DNA of 35,444 nt, taken from assembly GCA_005881715.1 (NCBI GenBank), contig VBEE01000063.1, positions 1 through 35,444 on the forward strand. The letters are read 5' to 3'. This DNA is from Chloroflexota bacterium (lineage in GTDB: Bacteria; Chloroflexota; Dormibacteria; CF-121). Below, piece by piece: positions 9,284 through 30,238 of the stretch. The notes beneath the pieces were generated by a model. The model made no database searches, was not told the origin of the DNA, and saw nothing but the letters and a program-made list of their open reading frames with translations. The position numbers and the translations under genes were made by a program. Each line of letters opens with the position of its first letter. The first letter of the stretch is position 1.

Positions 9284-9754
9284 CTAGTTGTAGATGCAGG
9301 TTGCGTTGCCCTGGATCGTGCCGTGCACGGTTCCCTGCGGCGGAGCGGCCTTGTAGGTAAAGAGCTCGGTGCCGGTCGGAATCGGAGCCGCGGCGTTCCA
9401 GTTGTTGGTCGAGCTGTGCAACAGGTTGGCCATCAGCAGCTCCTGCTGGTTGATCGTGGTGGCCGCGGCCGGGCTGGCCACGTCGCTGGCGCCTGGCAAG
9501 CTGGCTGGCGTCACGGTGCCAACCGGGTAGACGCCGTAGGTATTCCAGTACAGGTCGGCGGCGCCCTGAATGGTCGCGCCATCGGTCTTCATCCCGTTGC
9601 ACGCCGCATTGGCGTTGACACCCGAGATGTTGAAGAGAACGATCGCTGCCAGGATGCCGAGGATCGCGATGACCACGAGCAGCTCGACAAGGGTGAAGCC
9701 TTCCTGGCCGCGATGCGAGCGGCGGCGCGCATCTTTGAGTATGGAGAGAAGCAT
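9284..9754 (-). CDS. pilA: Major type IV pilin-like prepilin
   Basis: Prepilin signal GQEG|FTLVELLVVIAILGILAAIV; strong SD (AAGGAGGT) just upstream; two mature-region Cys (NAACNG, NATCIYN). Confidence 0.92.
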   Translation of the reverse strand: MLLSILKDARRRSHRGQEGFTLVELLVVIAILGILAAIVLFNISGVNANAACNGMKTDGATIQGAADLYWNTYGVYPVGTVTPASLPGASDVASPAAATTINQQELLMANLLHSSTNNWNAAAPIPTGTELFTYKAAPPQGTVHGTIQGNATCIYN

Positions 9755-9825: not shown

Positions 9826-9975
9826 TCAGCGGAGTAGCAGTTGGGAAACGGCGACCGTCACAGCCCCCAGGCTCAGGACGGTGAGCACGAGCGCCACCAG
9901 GGGCCGAGTGCGGCCTGGCCGACGTGGTGGCGCGAAGTCGACAGCGACGCGAGGGGCGTGATCAGGCCGCGACAC
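9826..9975 (-). CDS. 49-aa single-TM protein at the pilN position (mini-PilN candidate), absent from the supplied ORF track
   Basis: GTG start 9975 preceded by GGGAGGTGA SD; translates to MSRPDHAPRVAVDFAPPRRPGRTRPLVALVLTVLSLGAVTVAVSQLLLR*; start overlaps the restored pilM stop. Confidence 0.65.
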   Translation of the reverse strand: MSRPDHAPRVAVDFAPPRRPGRTRPLVALVLTVLSLGAVTVAVSQLLLR

Positions 9976-10886
9976 GGATGTCACCTCCCTGCGACGGACT
10001 GAGCCGGCTCTGCCACTGGTTCTGCTGGATCAGCCCGATCCCGGCAATGTGGGCCTGCCAGGGAAAACCGGGCGGCACGCTGAACCGCGGCGCCGGCTGG
10101 CTAACCCTGAACTCGAAGCGCTCCTCGGCGCGCTGGGGTCCGTCGGGGAGGAAGCTGAAACGCCCGGCGAGAAAGAGGGGCGTCGCCGGCGTGATCGGAA
10201 CGTCTGAGGCGGTCCCCCGCATGAACTTGACGAGCGCGTTCAGGGAAAGCGCCAGCTCGTCAAGCTGAGCGTCAATGTCGTCGGCCGGGGCGTCGAGGAG
10301 GAAGGTGCGAAAGAATCGCGGTCGACCCTCGCGGTCGACCCTGCACCACGAGCACCAGGGTGGCCTCCGCCGCCCCCCACTCGAGCACGAGGCCGTCGGA
10401 GACGCCGATCCCGCGCGCCAGCGCCAGCGGTTTCAAGTCCATGTGCTCGACCTGCAGCCCGGCCGCGCCAATCGCCGCAACCAGGGCGTCGATCATCTCT
10501 CGCCTCGCGGCCACCAGATACACGGCATAGCCATTCGGATCACGAACCGCGTGCCAGGCGAAGTAGACGTCGGCGGCGGCCATCGGCACCTGCCGGCGGC
10601 CTTCGAACACGACCGCACGGCTGAGCTCGCTCTGACGAAGGGCGGGCAATCGGAAATCGCGGAAGGCGGTCCCGGTTTCTCCAATCGCCACCCGGGCACG
10701 GGTCGAGGTGAAGGTCCCAGCTTCCAGCGCGCCCCGCACGGCCGCTGTCAATAGTCGAGTCGGCATCCCATCCGCCAGGGCACCTTCCGGGAGCAGGACC
10801 TCAGCATGATTGATGAGGCGGCGGCCGTCGACCTCCAGCAGCTTCAGTTCCCGAGCGCCGAGGTCGATCGCGCAGAGACGAGTCAC
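9962..10886 (-). pseudogene. pilM: pilM-like gene split by a frameshift (intact 5' part 10272-10886, 3' part continuing to 9962)
   Basis: N-part MTRLCAIDLGARELKLLEVDG (actin-like PilM); the frame continues in another register as RFFRTFLLDAPADDIDAQLDELALSLNALVKFMRG...PLFLAGRFSFLP; break coincides with an exact 13-bp duplication. Confidence 0.85.
10316..10341. repeat. Perfect 2 x 13-bp tandem repeat TCGCGGTCGACCC
   Basis: aa[TCGCGGTCGACCC][TCGCGGTCGACCC]tgcacc read directly. Confidence 0.98.
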
Positions 10887-11308
10887 TGGATGCTTTCCCA
10901 GGTGACGACAGATGACGGACCAACCTGGGTGACCAGTGCCGTTAACGTGCGGCTGGTACCGGTCGCGGTGATGGTCACGTTCCAGGTGGCCCCATTGCCG
11001 TGGCAGGGGTTGCCCTTCTGGATCCCTACGTTGACGGTAATCGCGCCGCTCGGGTAGTTCAGTGTGAGCCCGCTGGTCTTGGGGGCGTTGCAGCCGTTGC
11101 CATTCTTCTCGTCGATGACCTGCATGGCGTAAGCCAGCCCGGCATCGAGGGCATATGTCGATCGCGTGTCTGCGTTTACGGTTCCCAAGCCGAGGAAGGC
11201 GCTGCTGGCCAGCGTCAGGCCTGCCCAGAGGATGAGCAGGAAGGCGGCGACAAACGCCAACACGATGAGAAGCGCCTGTCCGCGCTGGCGATGGCGATGC
11301 CCGAACAT
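10883..11308 (-). CDS. PilX-like minor pilin/assembly protein (start ATG 11308; upstream ORF extension is spurious)
   Basis: MFGHRHRQRGQALLIVLAFVAAFLLILWAGLTLA N-terminal helix; TGATG coupling with the upstream gene; position in pilus operon. Confidence 0.7.
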   Translation of the reverse strand: MFGHRHRQRGQALLIVLAFVAAFLLILWAGLTLASSAFLGLGTVNADTRSTYALDAGLAYAMQVIDEKNGNGCNAPKTSGLTLNYPSGAITVNVGIQKGNPCHGNGATWNVTITATGTSRTLTALVTQVGPSSVVTWESIQ

Positions 11309-11775
11309 CAGATGCACCCGCCCGGGCGGTTGCTCACGTTGAGCACCACGGCCGACGCTCCTGTGGCGGATGGCTGGATGGTGACGGTGCCGTAGCAGCC
11401 GGCCCAGCTGACGGTCACGCTCGTCATGCCGCGGGCGACGACCTGCGGACTCCCATTGACGGTTCGGATCAAGTTCCGGCCGGCATCCACGATGTACACA
11501 ACCGTCACAGGCGGGACCCCGTAGGTCAGCGTCATTGGCCCACCCACCTGAATCGTGCACGGGCAGCCGGCGGTTGACGTCGCGCTGTTGAGGTCTCGAG
11601 TCAGCCAGATGCTGGCGCCGCTAACGGCGGTATCGGCGGCGATCACTCGCGCCTCGTTGCTGATCGCCCGATAGCCCACGAGGAACGTGCCGGCCATCGC
11701 CAGCGTGAGCACGGTAAAGATGGCCACGCCAACCATGGCCTCGACCAGCGTGAAACCACGCTGCCGGCGCTTCAT
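11308..11775 (-). CDS. Minor prepilin (PilW-like)
   Basis: MKRRQRG|FTLVEAMVGVAIFTVLTLAMAG. Confidence 0.88.
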   Translation of the reverse strand: MKRRQRGFTLVEAMVGVAIFTVLTLAMAGTFLVGYRAISNEARVIAADTAVSGASIWLTRDLNSATSTAGCPCTIQVGGPMTLTYGVPPVTVVYIVDAGRNLIRTVNGSPQVVARGMTSVTVSWAGCYGTVTIQPSATGASAVVLNVSNRPGGCI

Positions 11776-12152
11776 GGCAACTCCTTGAGGAAATCGAGTT
11801 GCTCCCGAATGCCATTTGGCCCGCTGACCGTCAGGATGATTTCCTGCAAGCCCGTGTCGGCATTGCCCGCGGCGAAGTTCGGGTTCAAGTTCTTGTTGTA
11901 GTGCAGGACCTGCGTGCTGAATGAATAGCCGCCCAGGGAGAGATGCGCGTAGTTGGCTGCCGCCAGGTAGGGCTGGCTCTTGATGTACTCGGCATCGGAG
12001 CGGGTCATGCGGTCGAGCGTGGTCTCCTGCTGATGGCGGGTCGCGGCCAGTGTGGTTGCCGAGAACCCGCCGAGCACGGTGACGACAATAACGGCCAGGA
12101 GCGCCATGGCAACCGTGGTTTCGATCAAGCTGAAGCCGCGCTTGACGGTCAT
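11772..12152 (-). CDS. Minor prepilin (PilV-like)
   Basis: MTVKRG|FSLIETTVAMALLAVIVVTVLGG; overlaps both neighbours by 4 nt. Confidence 0.86.
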   Translation of the reverse strand: MTVKRGFSLIETTVAMALLAVIVVTVLGGFSATTLAATRHQQETTLDRMTRSDAEYIKSQPYLAAANYAHLSLGGYSFSTQVLHYNKNLNPNFAAGNADTGLQEIILTVSGPNGIREQLDFLKELP

Positions 12153-13360
12153 TTCAGGGCTCCCACCAGGCCGTACATCGCCGAGATCAGCGAGACGGCG
12201 ATGAAGCCGACGATGACGCCGACCGCCACGGTCATCACGGGCTCGATCAGCGACGTCATCGCCCGGATTCGATACTCCAGCTCCTCCTCGTAGAACTCGG
12301 CGGCTTGTTCCAGGTAGGTATCCAGCGTTCCCGTCTCCTCGCCGACGCGAACCATCTGGGTCAGCATGGGCGGAAACAGGCGCGTCCGAATCAGCGGTCC
12401 GGCAAACCCCTCACCACTCGTCATCTGCTCCTTCACGGTGGCCAGTCCTTTCTGGAAGACCCTGTTGCCGGTGCTGGCGATGACGGCCTCGAAGGTCTGT
12501 CCCAACGGCACGCCGGCCTTCAACACCATCGCCAGTGTCCGGGCAAAGCGATTGAGCACGGCCGACAGGACGATCGGCCCCAGGATCGGCGCCTTGATCG
12601 AGAGCTGGTCTTTGGCGTAGATCCCGCGTGACGTTCGCAGCGCGAGGACCATGGCGCCCGCGATCGTGATGATCACCGCGGCGATGATCAGTGCCCACTG
12701 GCGGGTGAAATTGACAATGCCGATCAGGATCCGGGTTGATAACGGCAGCTCCACCCGGAACTCCGCGAAGATCCGAACAAAAGCGGGTAGCGCGAAGAAA
12801 ACAAGAATGATGACAACCCCGGTCGCGACCACCAGGATGACGGCGGGGTAGATCATGGCGGCTTGAACCCGGCGCGCCGTGTTCAGGTCCCGCCGCAGAT
12901 ATCCCGCCAGCTCGGTCAGCGTCGCCTCGAGGTTACCGGTGAGCTCCGCCACGCGTACCAGGTCGATGTAGAGGGCGGGGAACACCTTGGGGTGCTTGGC
13001 CAGCGCCTCCGAAAGATTCTGGCCACGCTCGAGGTCGTCGAGCACCGCCAGGATCACCCGCTTGAACAGGGGTGACGCCGTTTCCTGCGCGATGGTTCCG
13101 AGTGCCCGACTCATCGGCACCCCGGCGCCGACAAAGGTCGCCAGCTGGCGCGTGAAGAGAATGATGTCCGCGCGGGAGATCTGATAGAGGGATGGAAAGT
13201 AATCCGCCATCGTTTTCTTCGGCGGCGCCGGGTTGAGTTCGACGATCTTGAGGCCCTCCAGCCACAGAGCCTGCTCGGCGGCCGAACTGCCTTCGGCCTC
13301 GATTCGTCCGTCGCGCCGCTGCCCGGCTTCCGTGTAAGCCCGGTACGCGTAGCTAGGCAT
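12149..13360 (-). CDS. pilC: Type IV pilus inner-membrane platform protein
   Basis: Two GspF-type halves (FTRQLATFVGAGVPMSRAL; FARTLAMVLKAGVPLGQTFEAV), MVRVGEETGTLD, C-terminal TM. Confidence 0.94.
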   Translation of the reverse strand: MPSYAYRAYTEAGQRRDGRIEAEGSSAAEQALWLEGLKIVELNPAPPKKTMADYFPSLYQISRADIILFTRQLATFVGAGVPMSRALGTIAQETASPLFKRVILAVLDDLERGQNLSEALAKHPKVFPALYIDLVRVAELTGNLEATLTELAGYLRRDLNTARRVQAAMIYPAVILVVATGVVIILVFFALPAFVRIFAEFRVELPLSTRILIGIVNFTRQWALIIAAVIITIAGAMVLALRTSRGIYAKDQLSIKAPILGPIVLSAVLNRFARTLAMVLKAGVPLGQTFEAVIASTGNRVFQKGLATVKEQMTSGEGFAGPLIRTRLFPPMLTQMVRVGEETGTLDTYLEQAAEFYEEELEYRIRAMTSLIEPVMTVAVGVIVGFIAVSLISAMYGLVGALK

Positions 13361-15080
13361 CGTCGGCCTCGCTCAGGTGCACGGAACGCATCACCTCGGC
13401 GATCGTGGTCAGGCCCTCATCGATCTTCGCCAGGCCCGAGGAGCGCAGCGTCGTCATGCCTTCGGCGATCGCGCGCTCGCGCAACGCCTCGGGTGGCGCA
13501 TCACGCACCAGTTCCCGCTTGATGGTGTCGCTCATGCGGAGAACCTCGAAAACGCCGATGCGACCGTGGAAGCCGGTGTGCGCGCAAAAGGCGCAGCCGT
13601 TTCCGCGGTGGAAGATCTGGCCCGCGCCGCCCATCGCTCGGTAGAACTCCAGCTCCTCGGTTGGAGGCTCGTACAACACGCTGCACTCGGGGCAGATCCG
13701 CCGGACCAGGCGCTGCGCCAGGACGCCAGTTACCGCCGAGGTCACCATGAACGATTCGATGCCCATCTCCAGGAATCGGTAGATCGCACCGACCGCATCG
13801 GTCGCGTGCAGCGATGACAGGACCAGGTGCCCGGTGAGCGCCGACTGCACCGAGATCTCGGCCGTCTCTTTATCCCGGATTTCGCCGACGAGGATGGCGT
13901 CCGGGTCCTGGCGAAGGATGGCGCGAAGCCCATTCGCGAACGTGATCCCCGCCAGGCGGTTGATCTGGATCTGGTTCACGCCCTCGAATGTGTACTCGAC
14001 CGGATCCTCGATGGTCATGATGTTCTGTTCCATCCGATTGAGCTCGTTGAGGGCCGCGTAGAGCGTGGTCGTCTTTCCGCTCCCCGTCGGGCCGGTGACC
14101 AGGATCATGCCGTAGGGCGATCGGACCAGCGCGCGGAAGGTCAGCAACGACGCCCGTGAAAAGCCCAGCGTGTCGAGACCAAGGATGGAGCGCGACCGCT
14201 CCAGGAGGCGCAGCACGACCTTTTCGCCCCAGATGGTCTCGATGGTTCCCACGCGGATATCGAGCGGCCGGCCGTCGACCGTCGTCTGAATCTGTCCGTC
14301 CTGGCTGTGGCGCCGGTCGACGATGTCGAGGTTGGCCAGCAGCTTCACGCGCGAGGCGATCGGCGCGGCCAGGGTCGCCGGCAGCCGGGTCGCATCGTGC
14401 AGCACGCCGTCAATCCGAAAGCGCACTCGCAGGTGATCCTGCTGCGGCTCGATGTGAATGTCCGATGCTCGCTCCTCCGCGCCCTGGGCGATGATCAAGT
14501 CGACGATTTGCACCACCGGCGCGTCTTGCTTGACCTCCGCCAGCCGTCGGGTCGCCACGGTGGGCCGGCGTGTCTCCTCGAAGGAGCGGACGTTGCGGTC
14601 GACCCCGGTTCGAAGTTTGTAAGCCTGGGTGATCGCGTGCTCGATCTGCGATCGCACGCCCAGCACGGGCTTGATGCGCTTCCGGGTCAGCACCTTCAGC
14701 TCGGCGAACAGTGCCAGGTCACCCGGGTCGACCGTTGCGAGTTCAAGCTCGTCCTTGTCCACCCGAATGGGCAGGATGATGTGTTCGCGGGCGTACGACT
14801 CGGAGATCAGCGCGAGCGCCTGGCTCTCGATCCGCGTCCGGCTGAAATCGACTTGCGGGACATTGAAATGCAGGCTGAGCACACCGGCCAGCGCCTTTTC
14901 GTCGACGAGCCCCTGCGCGAGCAGGATCTGTCCCAATGGGCGGCGCTGTCGCTTTTGCTCAGCCAGGGCCGCCTCCAGCTGTTCCGCGGTCAGCAGCCCG
15001 CTCTCAAGCAGGAGCTCACCAAGGCGCTTTTCCTGGCGAAGCCCAAACCGTCCGGCGGGCTGGCGCTCCACGGCGCTCAC
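13353..15080 (-). CDS. pilB: Type IV pilus assembly ATPase with N-terminal MshEN domain
   Basis: Walker A GPTGSGKTTTLYAAL, IMTIEDPVEY, Walker B AILVGEIRDKETAEI, CPEC...CAFC zinc motif; MshEN motifs near N-terminus. Confidence 0.95.
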   Translation of the reverse strand: MSAVERQPAGRFGLRQEKRLGELLLESGLLTAEQLEAALAEQKRQRRPLGQILLAQGLVDEKALAGVLSLHFNVPQVDFSRTRIESQALALISESYAREHIILPIRVDKDELELATVDPGDLALFAELKVLTRKRIKPVLGVRSQIEHAITQAYKLRTGVDRNVRSFEETRRPTVATRRLAEVKQDAPVVQIVDLIIAQGAEERASDIHIEPQQDHLRVRFRIDGVLHDATRLPATLAAPIASRVKLLANLDIVDRRHSQDGQIQTTVDGRPLDIRVGTIETIWGEKVVLRLLERSRSILGLDTLGFSRASLLTFRALVRSPYGMILVTGPTGSGKTTTLYAALNELNRMEQNIMTIEDPVEYTFEGVNQIQINRLAGITFANGLRAILRQDPDAILVGEIRDKETAEISVQSALTGHLVLSSLHATDAVGAIYRFLEMGIESFMVTSAVTGVLAQRLVRRICPECSVLYEPPTEELEFYRAMGGAGQIFHRGNGCAFCAHTGFHGRIGVFEVLRMSDTIKRELVRDAPPEALRERAIAEGMTTLRSSGLAKIDEGLTTIAEVMRSVHLSEADDA

Positions 15081-15316: not shown

Positions 15317-16342
15317 CTAAGCGGCGAGGCGACGCAACTCCTCTGGGTGCTGTGCCCGGGCGGCGGCCGCGCCAAAATCCACGAGGCCGGCTTTGACCAG
15401 TTCGCCCAGGCTTCGCTCCATCGTGTTCATGCCGTCCTTGACCCCCGTCTCGAGCACATTGCGCAGCTGGCGCGTCTTGCCTTCCTTGATCAGGTTCTGG
15501 ACGGCGATGGTGTTGAGCAGCACCTCGAAGGCGGCGACTCGGCCGGGGCCGTCACGGCGGGGCAGTAATTGCTGGTAGATGACGGCCGTCAGCGTGTTCG
15601 AAAGCTGGACCCGGACCTGCTGCTGCTGCTCGGCGGGGAAGACGTCCACCACGCGGTCGACGGCCTGGGCCGTGTCATTGGTATGCAGGGTAGCCAGTAC
15701 CAGGTGACCGGTTTCGGCGATCGTGATCGCCGCCGAGATGGTCTCGAGGTCCCGCATCTCGCCGATGAGGAGCACGTCGGGCGTCTGGCGAAGGGCCGCC
15801 CTCAAGCCGTCCGCGAAGGAGGCGACATCCGCGCCGACCTCACGTTGCTCGACAATACTGCGCTGGTGCCGGTAGACGTACTCGATCGGGTCCTCGATGG
15901 TGATCACGTGGCACGGCCTGGTCGCCACGATGTCGTTCACCATCGCCGCCAGGGTGGAGGACTTGCCCGAGCCGGTCGGACCGGTCACCAGGATCAGACC
16001 CTGGCCCAGCCGGGTCAGGCCGCGCACCACCATGGGCACGCCGAGCTGGTCGAAGTTCGGAATCTGGTAGGGAATCAGCCGCAACGCCAGGCCAACGGAT
16101 CCGCGCTGCCTGAAGGCGTTGATCCGGAAGCGCGCCTGCCCTTTCCAGTTGAAGGAGAAGTCGAGATCGCCCTGTCCCTGGAAGCGGGCCCACCGCTCGG
16201 GCGACGCCACTTCCCGGGCCATCTCCTCGATCTGGTCAGGGCGAAGTGGATCGCGGGCGATTGGGACCAGGGCACCGTCCTTGCGCATGGTCGGCGGCGC
16301 GCCGGCCGACAGGATGAGGTCGGACGCTGCCTGCTCCAGCAA
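15317..16342 (-). CDS. pilT: Type IV pilus retraction ATPase; true start probably slightly upstream of 16342
   Basis: ASDLILSAGAPPTMRKDG, GPTGSGKSSTLAAM, HVITIEDPIEYVYRH, LIGEMRDLETI, ATLHTNDTAQAVDR. Confidence 0.94.
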   Translation of the reverse strand: MLEQAASDLILSAGAPPTMRKDGALVPIARDPLRPDQIEEMAREVASPERWARFQGQGDLDFSFNWKGQARFRINAFRQRGSVGLALRLIPYQIPNFDQLGVPMVVRGLTRLGQGLILVTGPTGSGKSSTLAAMVNDIVATRPCHVITIEDPIEYVYRHQRSIVEQREVGADVASFADGLRAALRQTPDVLLIGEMRDLETISAAITIAETGHLVLATLHTNDTAQAVDRVVDVFPAEQQQQVRVQLSNTLTAVIYQQLLPRRDGPGRVAAFEVLLNTIAVQNLIKEGKTRQLRNVLETGVKDGMNTMERSLGELVKAGLVDFGAAAARAQHPEELRRLAA

Positions 16343-24739: not shown

Positions 24740-26206
24740 TCAGGCCTCCTGCACGTCGACGATGATGGTCTTCAGATCCGTCATCTGCTCGATCGCCCGG
24801 TGGCCGCCCACCCGGCCGATCCCGCTCTCCTTGCCCGCGCGGCCGCCGAAGGGGATGTGCGCCTCCCAGTAGTTGGATGACTCGTTCACGTTGACCCAGC
24901 CGGTCTCGAGCCGCTGGGCGAAGCGCAGCGCGCGATCGATATCCCGGGTGTAGACGGAGCCCAGCAGGCCGTAGGGTGAGTCATTCGCGATGGCAAGGGC
25001 GTCCGTCTCGTCAGCGAACGGAATCAAGGGAGCGATCGGGCCAAACGTCTCCTCGCGGCTGACCCGCATCGCCGGCGACACGTTGCGCAGCACCGTGGCT
25101 TCGTAATAAAGGCGGGTTGGATATCCATCGGCCCGCCGCCCGCCCTGGACCACGGTCGCGCCGCGGTCGACCGCGTCTCGCACATGCTCGTCCATCTTCT
25201 GGGCGACGCCTTCGTTGTTGAGCGGACCCATCGTGGTGCCGTCGTCGAACGGATCGCCCAGCCTGATCGTGGTCATTGCCGCCGTCAGTCGCGCCAGGAA
25301 CGCGTCCTGAATCCCGCGCTGAACCAGGATGCGCTCCCCAGCCGTGCAACTCTGCCCGGCGCACAGGAAGCAGCCGGTGATCGTTCCTTCCGCGGCCCGG
25401 CCGAGGTCCGCATCATCGAAGATCACGATGGGGCCGTTGCCGCCCAGCTCCAGCATCACATGCTTGCCGGCAGCCCGCCGGGCGACCGATCGGCCGGTTT
25501 CGGTCGAGCCGACGAAGCCCACGCCGGCGACCAGCGGATGGCCGGCGATCTCATCGCCCACCACCGAGCCGGGGCCTGTGACCAGATTCAGGGCGCCCGC
25601 CGGGAGGTCCGCCTCCGTCAGGCACTCCATCAACTTCACGCTGATGGCCGACGTCGAGGTGGCCGGTGCCCAGACCACGCTATTGCCACCGGCGAGTGCC
25701 GGGGCGATGAGCTCCGTGGCCATCGTCAGCGGCCAGTTCCAGGGGGTGATCACACCGTACACGCCGCGGGGAACCCTCAGCGTAAACACGAGCTTGTTGC
25801 GCGCCATCGACGGGATGACATTGGTCTCCAGTCGTTTGATGTCTTCGGCGGCGATCCGGAAATACTCGACGGCTTCCCCGACTTCTCCCAGCGCTTCCGC
25901 CTTGTACGGCTTCCCCTGATCGAGGCTCAGCCATCGGGCCAGCTCCTCGCGCCGCCGGTCCATGACGTCGGCCACCCGGTGCAGCAGGGCCGCCCGCTCG
26001 AAGGCGCCGAGCCCGGCCATGGCCGCCCGCCCCCGATGCGCCGCCTCGACGGCGAGCGCCGCATCAGCCCGGGTGCCTTTCGGCAGCGTGGCGATCACCT
26101 CGCCGGTCGCGGGGCTTACCGCTTCGAAGGTGGCCTGGCTCTCGGAGTCGACCCAGCGGCCACCCACGAACATCTTCAGCGCCGGGGTTTTTTCGACAAC
26201 CTTCAT
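24740..26206 (-). CDS. NAD(P)-dependent aldehyde dehydrogenase
   Basis: TPWNWPLTMATELIAPALAGGN, MLELGGNGPIVIFDDADL, GQSCTAGERILVQ catalytic Cys, EETFGPIAPL. Confidence 0.95.
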   Translation of the reverse strand: MKVVEKTPALKMFVGGRWVDSESQATFEAVSPATGEVIATLPKGTRADAALAVEAAHRGRAAMAGLGAFERAALLHRVADVMDRRREELARWLSLDQGKPYKAEALGEVGEAVEYFRIAAEDIKRLETNVIPSMARNKLVFTLRVPRGVYGVITPWNWPLTMATELIAPALAGGNSVVWAPATSTSAISVKLMECLTEADLPAGALNLVTGPGSVVGDEIAGHPLVAGVGFVGSTETGRSVARRAAGKHVMLELGGNGPIVIFDDADLGRAAEGTITGCFLCAGQSCTAGERILVQRGIQDAFLARLTAAMTTIRLGDPFDDGTTMGPLNNEGVAQKMDEHVRDAVDRGATVVQGGRRADGYPTRLYYEATVLRNVSPAMRVSREETFGPIAPLIPFADETDALAIANDSPYGLLGSVYTRDIDRALRFAQRLETGWVNVNESSNYWEAHIPFGGRAGKESGIGRVGGHRAIEQMTDLKTIIVDVQEA

Positions 26207-28797
26207 CGTGCTCCTCCCGAGCCTGCCAGCACCGGCAGCTCTTTGAGCCTTGTCATCTGCGCGTCGTACAACGGCTCCTTGACGACGCTGGCCGGGTAGC
26301 GCCGGCCGAAGTACTGGACCTCGACGCTCGACCCCTCCTCGGCGCCGTCCAGTGGCAGGTAACCATAGATGATGCTCTTTCCCACCGTGTAACCGAAATT
26401 CGCGCTGGTCACGTAACCAAGCACGCCTCCACCGTGTCCTCCCCCAGCGGGGGAGGGTGACTGGAAGATTGGTTCTTTTCCGAGCACCGCGACCGCCGGG
26501 TCATCGAACGTCATGCATGCCAGCTTCCGAGTGATGCCCTGTTCCTTGATCCGCAGCAGCGCGTCACGACCGATGAAGGCGCCTTTGTTGAGACGGACGG
26601 CAAAGCCCAGGCCTGCCTCATAGGGGTTGTGCTCGCTGTGGATGTCGGCGCCCCATAACCGATATCCCTTCTCCAGCCGGAGCGAGTCGAAGGCCCCACC
26701 CCCGAGCGCTGCCACCCCGAGCGCCTCACCCGCCTTCCACAGGATGTCCCAGAGACGCAACCCGTATTCCGTCGGCGTATAGAGCTCCCAGCCCAGCTCA
26801 CCGACATATGAAATCCGAATCGCATAGGTGGGAACGCTGCCAATCGTTAGCGAGCGGGCGGTGAGATAGGGAAACGCCGCGTTCGAAACGTCCTCCTGGC
26901 TCAACGGCTGCACGAGATCGCGTGCCCGGGGGCCCCAGACGCCGATGCAGCACCAGCCCGAGGTCAGGTCTTTCAGGTGGACACTGGAATCGTCGGGCAG
27001 GTGGCGACGCATCCAGGCGAGGTCGTGCATCCCAACGCCGCCCCCGGTGACGACCCAGAACCGGTCGTCGTCCACGCGGGTGACTGTCAGGTCGGTCATG
27101 ATGCCGCCGCGCTCGTTGAGCATCGCGGTGTACGTCACCTTGCCGGCCGGGTGGTCCATCTGGTTTGCCGCCATCCGCTGCAGATAGGTAAGCGCCCCCG
27201 GCCCCGACACCTCGATCTTCTTAAAGGGCGTCGCGTCGAAGAGCACGACGCGCTCGCGCGCCGCTCGATGCTCGGCAGCCTGGATCGGTGACCAGAACCG
27301 GGCCGCCCATTCGGAACGGCCTGGGATAGCCCTCGCCGAATCTCCCTCCCCCCTTGTGGGGAAGTTCGGTACGAAATCTCCCTCCCCCCTTGTGGGGGAG
27401 GGTCGGGGTGGGGGGCTATTGCCCTCATACCACTGGGGCCGCTCCCAGCCTGCCCCCTCGAGGAACATCGCGCCCAGCGCCTGCTCCCGCTCGTAAAAGG
27501 GCGTCAGGCGGAGTTTGCGCGGCGTTTCCATCGGCTGCAACGGGTGGATGATGTCGTACACCTCGCGATAGTTCTGGGCTCCACGGGCGCGCAGATACGA
27601 GCGGGTGAACGCATGTGGGTAGAACCGGTTGAGATCTTCTTCGCGAAGGTCGAGATCCGGGACACCCTCCACCATCAACTCGGCCACGGCGCGGGCCGCC
27701 CCCACGCCGTGGGTGATCCAGACGGCCTCGCAAGCCCAGAAGCCGCGCACATCGAGCGACTCGCCGATCAGGGAATGCCCGTCCGGCGTGAACGAGAACA
27801 TGCCGTTGATCTTCTCCACCAGCTCCGCCGACTCGAGCGGGGGGTAGAGCTCCGACGCATAAGCCATCGAGGGGGCGAAGAGGTCGTCGCGGAACGGCGC
27901 GCAGGACGGCATCAGGCCGTCGTCCCAGCTCGAGCGAAGCTCCTGAGGATCAACCAGGACGGGTTCGTGCCGGTAAGCACCGATCACGTAGCGGCGGTAA
28001 TCCTGGCGGAAATACATCGAGTGATCCTGATGGCGAACGATGGGCATGGATTGCCAGCCGGTCTCGCCCGACAGCTCGGGCAGGGGATCGGTGATGCCGA
28101 CCAGGTGCTGCAGTGGCTGAAGGGGGATTGGCACGCCGGCCATGCGGCCGATGACCGGGCCCCAGATGCCGGCGGCGCTGAGGACGTGCTCCGTTACGAT
28201 GCGGCCCCGATCCGTCTCCACGGCGGTGACGCGCCCCTGCTTGACGTCGATGCCGGTCAGGCGCGTGCGGGCAAGAAATCGAGCTCCCGCCTCCTCAGCC
28301 ACACGGGCCAGGGCTTCCGATGCCTGGACCGCCCTCACGGTCCCATCGCTCGGTACATGAATCGCGCCGTGCAGGTGATCGGTGCGCATGATCGGCACCA
28401 GGCGGCTGATTTCATCGGGGCCGATCAGACGGGTCTTGAGCCCCCAGGAGGTCGCGTGGCCATGCTTGCGTTTGAGCTCCTCCCACCGTTCCGGAGTTGC
28501 GGCCACCTCGAGGCTGCCCACCTCCCAGTAGACGGGCTCGCCGTCGAGCTGGAGGTTGCGGTAGGTCTCCACCGTGTCGATCGCGAACCGGCAGGTGGTG
28601 CGCGCGACATTGTTCTGAAACACCAGCCCCGGCGCGTGCGAGGTCGAACCCCCCGCGCGGAACAGCGGTCCCTGGTCGATCACGACGACATCGCGCCAGC
28701 CGAGCCGGGTGAGGTGATAGGCCGCGCTACAGCCGACGATCCCGGCGCCGATGATGACCACCCGGGCCTGGTCCGGCAGGCGTTCAGACCCGGGCAT
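26203..28797 (-). CDS. Dimethylglycine/sarcosine dehydrogenase-like FAD oxidoreductase fused to GcvT-like THF domain; start ATG 28797
   Basis: VVIIGAGIVGCSAAYHLTRLGW, GGSTSHAPGLVFQ (candidate His-FAD), C-terminal GcvT AAFPYLTARSLTIG...SYVGELGWELYTP...DSLRLEKGYRLWGADI. Confidence 0.93.
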   Translation of the reverse strand: MPGSERLPDQARVVIIGAGIVGCSAAYHLTRLGWRDVVVIDQGPLFRAGGSTSHAPGLVFQNNVARTTCRFAIDTVETYRNLQLDGEPVYWEVGSLEVAATPERWEELKRKHGHATSWGLKTRLIGPDEISRLVPIMRTDHLHGAIHVPSDGTVRAVQASEALARVAEEAGARFLARTRLTGIDVKQGRVTAVETDRGRIVTEHVLSAAGIWGPVIGRMAGVPIPLQPLQHLVGITDPLPELSGETGWQSMPIVRHQDHSMYFRQDYRRYVIGAYRHEPVLVDPQELRSSWDDGLMPSCAPFRDDLFAPSMAYASELYPPLESAELVEKINGMFSFTPDGHSLIGESLDVRGFWACEAVWITHGVGAARAVAELMVEGVPDLDLREEDLNRFYPHAFTRSYLRARGAQNYREVYDIIHPLQPMETPRKLRLTPFYEREQALGAMFLEGAGWERPQWYEGNSPPPRPSPTRGEGDFVPNFPTRGEGDSARAIPGRSEWAARFWSPIQAAEHRAARERVVLFDATPFKKIEVSGPGALTYLQRMAANQMDHPAGKVTYTAMLNERGGIMTDLTVTRVDDDRFWVVTGGGVGMHDLAWMRRHLPDDSSVHLKDLTSGWCCIGVWGPRARDLVQPLSQEDVSNAAFPYLTARSLTIGSVPTYAIRISYVGELGWELYTPTEYGLRLWDILWKAGEALGVAALGGGAFDSLRLEKGYRLWGADIHSEHNPYEAGLGFAVRLNKGAFIGRDALLRIKEQGITRKLACMTFDDPAVAVLGKEPIFQSPSPAGGGHGGGVLGYVTSANFGYTVGKSIIYGYLPLDGAEEGSSVEVQYFGRRYPASVVKEPLYDAQMTRLKELPVLAGSGGAR
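26438..26456. repeat. Palindromic insert CCTCCCCC-AGC-GGGGGAGG inside the DMGDH-like CDS
   Basis: Perfect 8-bp arms; encodes SPSPAGGGHGG loop. Confidence 0.85.
27339..27417. repeat. Two copies (36-bp period) of AATCTCCCTCCCCCCTTGTGGGG plus G-rich tail, in frame within the DMGDH-like CDS
   Basis: Identical 23-mers at 27339-27361 and 27375-27397; encodes PPPRPSPTRGEGDFVPNFPTRGEGD. Confidence 0.92.
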
Positions 28798-30238
28798 GCA
28801 GGATGGCGTCCTTGCGGACCTCGATGAACGCCTGGAGCTGTTCATCCACCCCCGAATCGATGCCGGGGTCGGCGTAGTCCTTGAGCAGCTGCTTCCATTT
28901 CTCATTCGCCACCCGATCGGCGGTCCGCGAGCCGTTCCGCTGCCAGCGGTCGAAGTTCTCGGTGGAGGAGATCCAGGGTCGGTAGAAGCCGGTCCGGTAG
29001 TGCCGCATGGTGTGCTCGGAGCCGAGATGATGCCCACCCGGGCCGACCTCGCGGATGCCGTCCATGGCGAACCCTTCGTCATCGAAGGGGATGCCCCGAC
29101 TCAGGATCCACTCGAACATCCGGAGCGCCTCAACATCGATGATGAATTTTTCGTACGAGGCCAGTAGCGCGGATTCCAGCCAGCCGGCTGCGTGCAGGAC
29201 AAAGTGCACGCCGCCGAGTACCGTCGGCCACATGCACATCAGCGATTCGTAGGCCGCCTGCGCGTCCGGGCCCTTCGACGAGGTCAGCGCCCCTCCGCCC
29301 CGGAATGGCAGCTTGTAATGCCTGGCCATCTGGGCGCTGGCCAGGATGCCCATCGCTGACTCCGGGGTGCCGAAGGCAGGACTGCCGGACTGCATGTCGA
29401 TGTTCGTCAGGAACGACCCGTAGATGCACGGTGCTCCGGCGCGGACGAGCTGGATGAGCGCGATGCCGGCCAGCGCCTCGGCGGTTTGCTGGGCCAGGGT
29501 GCCGGCCAGGCCCATGGGCGACATCGCGCCGGCCATCAGAAATGGGGTCGCGATCACGGGCTGATTGGCGGCCGCGTACTCGAGCAGAGCGCCGAGCATC
29601 CGGTCGTCATATCGCAGCGGACTGTTGACATTGACCAGGGCGAGCAGGGCGGGCGTCTTCTCGATGTTCTCCCGGCCGCCGAACAGGATCGACGACATCT
29701 CGATGGAGTCGCGCGCGCCCTCCTCTGAGATGACGCTGCCCATGTAGGGCATGTCGGTCCAGCGGATGTGCGAGTAGACCATGTCCAGGTGGCGGGTTTC
29801 CAGCGGAAGATCCTCCGGTTCGACGATGGTGCCGCCGGCACAGTGGATCTGCGGCGTCGCCTGCGCCATCTTGTCGAAGTTCGTGAAGTCCTCGATGGTG
29901 GCGCCCCGCCGGCCGCGATCCAGGTCGGTGATGAAGGGCGGGCCGTAGACGGGCGCGTTGACCATGTGGTTGCCGCCGATGACGACTGAATTTTTCGGGT
30001 TCCGCGCCTGCACCTCGAAGGTCGCCGGGACTTTCCTGATCTGTTCCTCGATGAAGGCGCGTTCGAAGCGAACCCGATTCTCTTCGATCTTCAATCCGGC
30101 GCCCCGGAAGAGGTCGAGGGCTCTGGGGTGCAAGAAGTCGACGCCGATCTCCTGCAGGATCAGCATGGCGTGGTCGTCGATCTGCTGAACCTGCTCGGCA
30201 GAGAGGATGTCGTACGGCTTGAGCGTGTTGGTCCACAT
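28784..30238 (-). CDS. Trimethylamine/glycine betaine methyltransferase family (MttB superfamily, non-pyrrolysine); start ATG 30238
   Basis: MttB-family sequence with GGTIVEPEDLPLETRHLDM, FLMAGAMSPMGLAGTLAQQTAEALAGIALIQ, FGTPESAMGILASAQMARHYKLPFRGGG. Confidence 0.9.
   Translation of the reverse strand: MWTNTLKPYDILSAEQVQQIDDHAMLILQEIGVDFLHPRALDLFRGAGLKIEENRVRFERAFIEEQIRKVPATFEVQARNPKNSVVIGGNHMVNAPVYGPPFITDLDRGRRGATIEDFTNFDKMAQATPQIHCAGGTIVEPEDLPLETRHLDMVYSHIRWTDMPYMGSVISEEGARDSIEMSSILFGGRENIEKTPALLALVNVNSPLRYDDRMLGALLEYAAANQPVIATPFLMAGAMSPMGLAGTLAQQTAEALAGIALIQLVRAGAPCIYGSFLTNIDMQSGSPAFGTPESAMGILASAQMARHYKLPFRGGGALTSSKGPDAQAAYESLMCMWPTVLGGVHFVLHAAGWLESALLASYEKFIIDVEALRMFEWILSRGIPFDDEGFAMDGIREVGPGGHHLGSEHTMRHYRTGFYRPWISSTENFDRWQRNGSRTADRVANEKWKQLLKDYADPGIDSGVDEQLQAFIEVRKDAILHARV

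Follow-up and report, generated by a model that had tools for sequence, protein, structure and literature searches.

A perfect 13-bp tandem duplication in pilM of a Chloroflexota bacterium: probably a recent loss-of-function mutation, with assembly artefact as a serious rival

In P. aeruginosa PAO1 a 12-bp tandem duplication in pilD (pilD12) was selected by phage PO4, and reversion was observed in 45% of the colonies and in none when the duplication was recoded (PMC13170266). Phage-selected frameshifts in pilM of the same species (V168FS and G224FS) accompany the loss of twitching (PMC13170266), and PilM is needed for type IVa pilus assembly in the bacteria studied (PMC6916266). In B. subtilis 168, gudB carries a 9-bp repeat, one copy of which is deleted precisely at 1e-4 (PMC3681913). 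Here, we describe a 13-bp tandem duplication in pilM of a soil Chloroflexota bacterium, whose genome was assembled from metagenome reads, found on a stretch of 35,444 nucleotides (contig VBEE01000063.1 of assembly GCA_005881715.1), hereafter the window.

Like pilD12, the duplication is perfect, short, of nearly equal size and located in a type IV pilus assembly gene, and slipped-strand deletion of one copy is expected. However, pilD12 is in frame, lies in pilD and was obtained in culture under a known selection with measured reversion, whereas the present duplication shifts the frame, lies in pilM and was seen once, in an assembly. In analogy to gudB-CR of B. subtilis 168, two perfect tandem copies inactivate a gene which is intact in wild relatives, and the precise loss of one copy, which restores gudB, would restore pilM as well; in contrast to the pilM repeat, gudB-CR is in frame, affects an enzyme gene and has been demonstrated to revert. 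V168FS and G224FS of P. aeruginosa likewise cut PilM short near its middle, but they are single-base deletions and thereby differ from the 13-bp duplication. The number of repeats sets the frame as in slipped-strand contingency loci (simple-sequence-repeat phase variation), but the pilM repeat forms no multi-copy array and is not repeated in any relative.

The repeat consists of two adjacent, perfect 13-mers TCGCGGTCGACCC at positions 10316–10341 of the window, within pilM on the minus strand, as the earlier note had described it. In a four-genome alignment copy 1 (10316–10328, unstranded) appears as the insertion, while copy 2 (10329–10341, unstranded) aligns with the single copy of all relatives. 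The identity of the repeat extends one base past the second copy, to 10342. The flanking microhomology common to both copies amounts to 1 bp only, which counts against a real duplication in the cells. The pair is the sole perfect tandem repeat with a unit of at least 10 bp in the whole window, the 26-mer occurs once in the window and never in shuffled sequences, and no exact match to it was found in other genomes of the public genome collection. Furthermore, sample stretches of 306 kb of the window's genome and 245 kb of its relatives (551 kb in total) were surveyed, and among the perfect tandems with a unit of at least 11 bp the pilM repeat alone had a unit length not divisible by three. Further perfect tandems with units longer than 10 bp were present in this survey, with units of 12, 18 and 30 bp, each a multiple of three. 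Since an order-3 Markov model generated no perfect tandem with units above 10 bp, and since the repeat stands alone in the survey, we conclude that it is no chance pattern of composition. Each copy contains the palindrome GGTCGACC, which among the relatives aligned occurs in the window and in genome G008 only. Between the two palindromes an 8-bp stem with a 5-nt loop is predicted in single-stranded DNA, with modest z-scores of −1.6 and −2.2. As would be demanded of a phase-variable repeat, the unit lies within a coding sequence and its length is not divisible by three; as would be demanded of a loss-of-function tandem duplication, the copies are perfect, adjacent and missing from the ancestral state.

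The truncated pilM ORF (10272–10886, minus strand, GTG start) encodes 204 amino acids instead of the 303 expected and thus lacks the full-length frame. The assignment to PilM made in the earlier note is corroborated by the match of residues 7–160 to PF11104 (PilM_2, E 1.2e-09), with a score of 38.1 bits at a cut-off of 27; the intact proteins of relatives score between 38 and 43 bits. The match to TIGR01175 remains below the cut-off (53 vs 133 bits). The frame is lost after ...VVQGRPR and the ORF ends in ...VVQGRPRGSTAILSHLPPRRPGRRH. Directly beyond the repeat, the out-of-frame 3′ part (9962–10315, minus strand; codons 187–303 plus stop) is open and conserved: read from 10315 to 9962 in the other frame, it translates as FFRTFLLDAP...GGDIRVAA followed by the stop, with 117 codons and 0 internal stops. 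Positions 9965–10330 align at 80% to residues 182–303 of an intact relative, and dN/dS of the 3′ part is 0.11 against G008, the nearest relative there (91% DNA identity). Changes private to the window number 6 in these 354 bp, with 0, 2 and 4 of them at codon positions 1, 2 and 3. Because the 3′ half is undecayed and the remaining pil genes of the cluster are intact, selection must have acted on pilM up to very recent times, if it does not act still, and the duplication is either very recent or an assembly artefact; the lack of decay fits the artefact equally well. The closest relative switches near 10650, inside pilM, with G008 below and G014 above this position, suggesting recombination or uneven rates. 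A chimera of two strains, fused at the repeat, was considered and rejected, as sliding identity to the three close relatives showed no jump at 10316–10341; the change in rank between G008 and G014 occurs about 300 bp away. No other pilM was found in the roughly 89%-complete genome. Two further PilM_2 matches, which were examined as possible intact stand-ins, turned out to be an FtsA, encoded beside ftsZ, and a protein resembling FtsA.

For comparison, 60 related genomes were searched for pilM. Of the 15 genomes in the genus (the window's own among them), 14 contain a relative of the gene, as do 3/3 genomes of the same family. A full pilM is present in 16 relatives, 13 from the genus and 3 from the family, and each of these carries a single equivalent of the 13-mer in an intact frame of 300–304 residues, counted from the matched start; neither a two-copy allele nor a partial repeat at the site was found among them. 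This alignment, which had been proposed in the earlier note, yielded no relative with a short PilM and, together with the intact 3′ half, bears out the claim that one extra 13-mer causes the frameshift. Removal of one copy gives the 304 codons that had been calculated; this number includes the stop, hence the protein has 303 amino acids, the length of PilM in G014, G002 and G008. The 13 bases are the sole insertion at the site, the 5′ part of pilM aligns without any further gap, and the insertion falls within the motif GRPRFFR (G183–R189), which is invariant in the family alignment. As all 16 relatives have one copy, the duplication is private to the window's assembly. The bin of one relative, G009, contains two pilM versions (L007, L050 and L088), one of which is divided between two contig ends, apparently reflecting two coexisting strains. 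The break in G009 pilM was also considered as a mark of a difficult site and dismissed, since the end of contig C402 matches the second G009 strain (C121), so that a strain fork is likelier.

The genomic context is that of a type IV pilus gene cluster, all on the minus strand, with a pilT retraction ATPase (15317–16342, TIGR01420 above cut-off), a pilB-like extension ATPase (13353–15080, with an MshEN domain), a pilC-like platform protein (12149–13360, T2SSF), two minor prepilin genes (11308–12152, i.e. 11772–12152 and 11308–11775) and a major-pilin-like gene (9284–9754, N_methyl) adjacent to pilM. The other pil genes of the cluster are intact; only pilM is split relative to all three close relatives. 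The MshEN domain of the PilB-like ATPase is a possible cyclic-di-GMP sensor. Between pilM and the major pilin lies a conserved ORF of 49–52 amino acids with a single membrane span and the ribosome-binding site GGGAGG (9826–9984, minus strand). This ORF shares 23 nt with the end of pilM and follows pilM in most relatives. The overlap of the restored pilM stop with a following ORF equipped with a Shine-Dalgarno site, pointed out in the earlier note, is real and conserved. The pattern of this ORF is SRPDxxxxVAVDFAPPxRPxRxRPLxALVLVVL..TVAVTQLLLR. Since no Pfam PilN or PilO match was found in the window's genome, it could be a reduced PilN-like partner. RNA families were not found in the window.

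Taken together, the repeat is in our reading a loss-of-function tandem duplication of an ordinary kind, which is potentially reversible and to which an assembly artefact is a serious rival. A very recent, lineage-private slippage or template-switch event, truncating an ancestral PilM of 303 residues, is in our view the somewhat more probable origin. The ancestral pilM would have had one 13-mer; the second could have arisen at the palindrome GGTCGACC, either by slippage or by a template switch, and would have put the gene out of frame at the invariant GRPRFFR, leaving a PilM of 204 residues. The two-copy allele, which we infer to exist in cells, is possibly present in only part of the population. 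Without its C-terminal 117 residues the truncated PilM would be expected to abolish pilus assembly, and pilus loss is thus the presumed phenotype; the early stop may also reduce the translation of the overlapping downstream ORF. Pairing of the GGTCGACC copies in the 8-bp stem would favour slipped-strand deletion of one copy, at an appreciable rate. A perfect tandem repeat able to pair in this way should shed one copy by slippage, and the two-copy allele would accordingly be reversible in principle without being an evolved switch. Such loss is a general property of perfect short tandem duplications.

The main competing explanation is that the cells have one copy and that the second 13-mer arose when two paths of contigs or reads, both ending in these 13 bases, were joined and their overlap was not collapsed. 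We consider this artefact a real possibility, although a tentative one, and estimate a true mutation to be about twice as probable, which is a judgement and no measurement. The window is a single consensus contig from an assembly fragmented into 125 contigs, which counts against the duplication being real, and the perfect identity of the copies, the undecayed gene and the lack of a second case among the relatives would all be expected of a faulty join. Moreover, the genomes of the relatives, twelve of which come from one soil series, are MAGs scaffolded from short reads, of the kind reported in PMC6784897 (IDBA-UD), and the G009 assembly also breaks within pilM near the site, between residues 166 and 186, although this break resembles a fork between two coexisting strains which share sequence there. 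However, the window is free of N, while uncertain joins elsewhere in the genome appear as N runs, and 26 bp are far below the 200-bp reads described (PMC6784897). Curation that drops regions without closely matching reads (PMC5079060) would also speak against an error, even though gapped alignments could let one pass and the window presumably, rather than demonstrably, belongs to that study. Furthermore, the identity to three relatives is steady across the junction, and no other duplication of this kind occurs in the 551 kb of own and related contigs.

Phase variation typically affects surface structures. An evolved contingency locus, in which piliation is switched by gain and loss of the 13-mer, would suit the pilus as such a structure, as well as a perfect, frame-shifting, structure-forming repeat in the sole pilM found in the genome. 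Nevertheless, we regard it as highly unlikely: a repeat that is kept or recurs in related lineages would be anticipated, but 0/16 relatives have two copies or a partial repeat and 16/16 have one, the GGTCGACC palindrome is limited to the window and G008, two copies form no array, and similar loci are missing from the sample of the window's own genome. The slipped-strand ON/OFF switch suggested in the earlier note thus finds no backing, as the site carries no repeat in any relative and only two copies in the window. There is at most a slight chance that pilus loss is stable and pilM a pseudogene heading for decay; the sole pilM found is indeed truncated, yet its 3′ half is undecayed and every other pil gene of the cluster is intact. 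That the short PilM is functional, or that ribosomal frameshifting yields the full-length protein, is compatible with both parts of the gene being open and still seems barely credible to us. Short PilM proteins do not occur among the relatives and the break lies within a motif invariant in the family, frameshifting is backed by no slippery-site analysis, and the extra 13 bp have no counterpart elsewhere.

If both states occur in the soil population, the locus would be a field example of the culture result obtained with pilD, in which short tandem duplications bring about a reversible loss of type IV pili, perhaps under phage pressure. That the duplication toggles piliation in wild soil Chloroflexi and is kept at intermediate frequency, e.g. 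by pilus-targeting phages, is a very improbable extension. If the cells are one-copy only, the case cautions against reading single frameshifts in assembled genomes as biology.

Among the indels specific to the window, only the pilM 13-mer shifts the frame of a gene which the three close relatives have intact. Further window-specific indels (5779, 9228, 18239, 18647, 21265, 23466, 26422 and 27340) were inspected as candidates and discarded, as none of them breaks up a gene when all three close relatives are taken as the reference. A dehydrogenase/GcvT-like ORF of 959 amino acids (26203–29082, minus strand) contains in-frame insertions of a short palindromic repeat of the CTCCCTCCCCCCTTGTGGGGGAG type, which translate as PPPRPSPTRGEG and SPSPAGGGHGGG.
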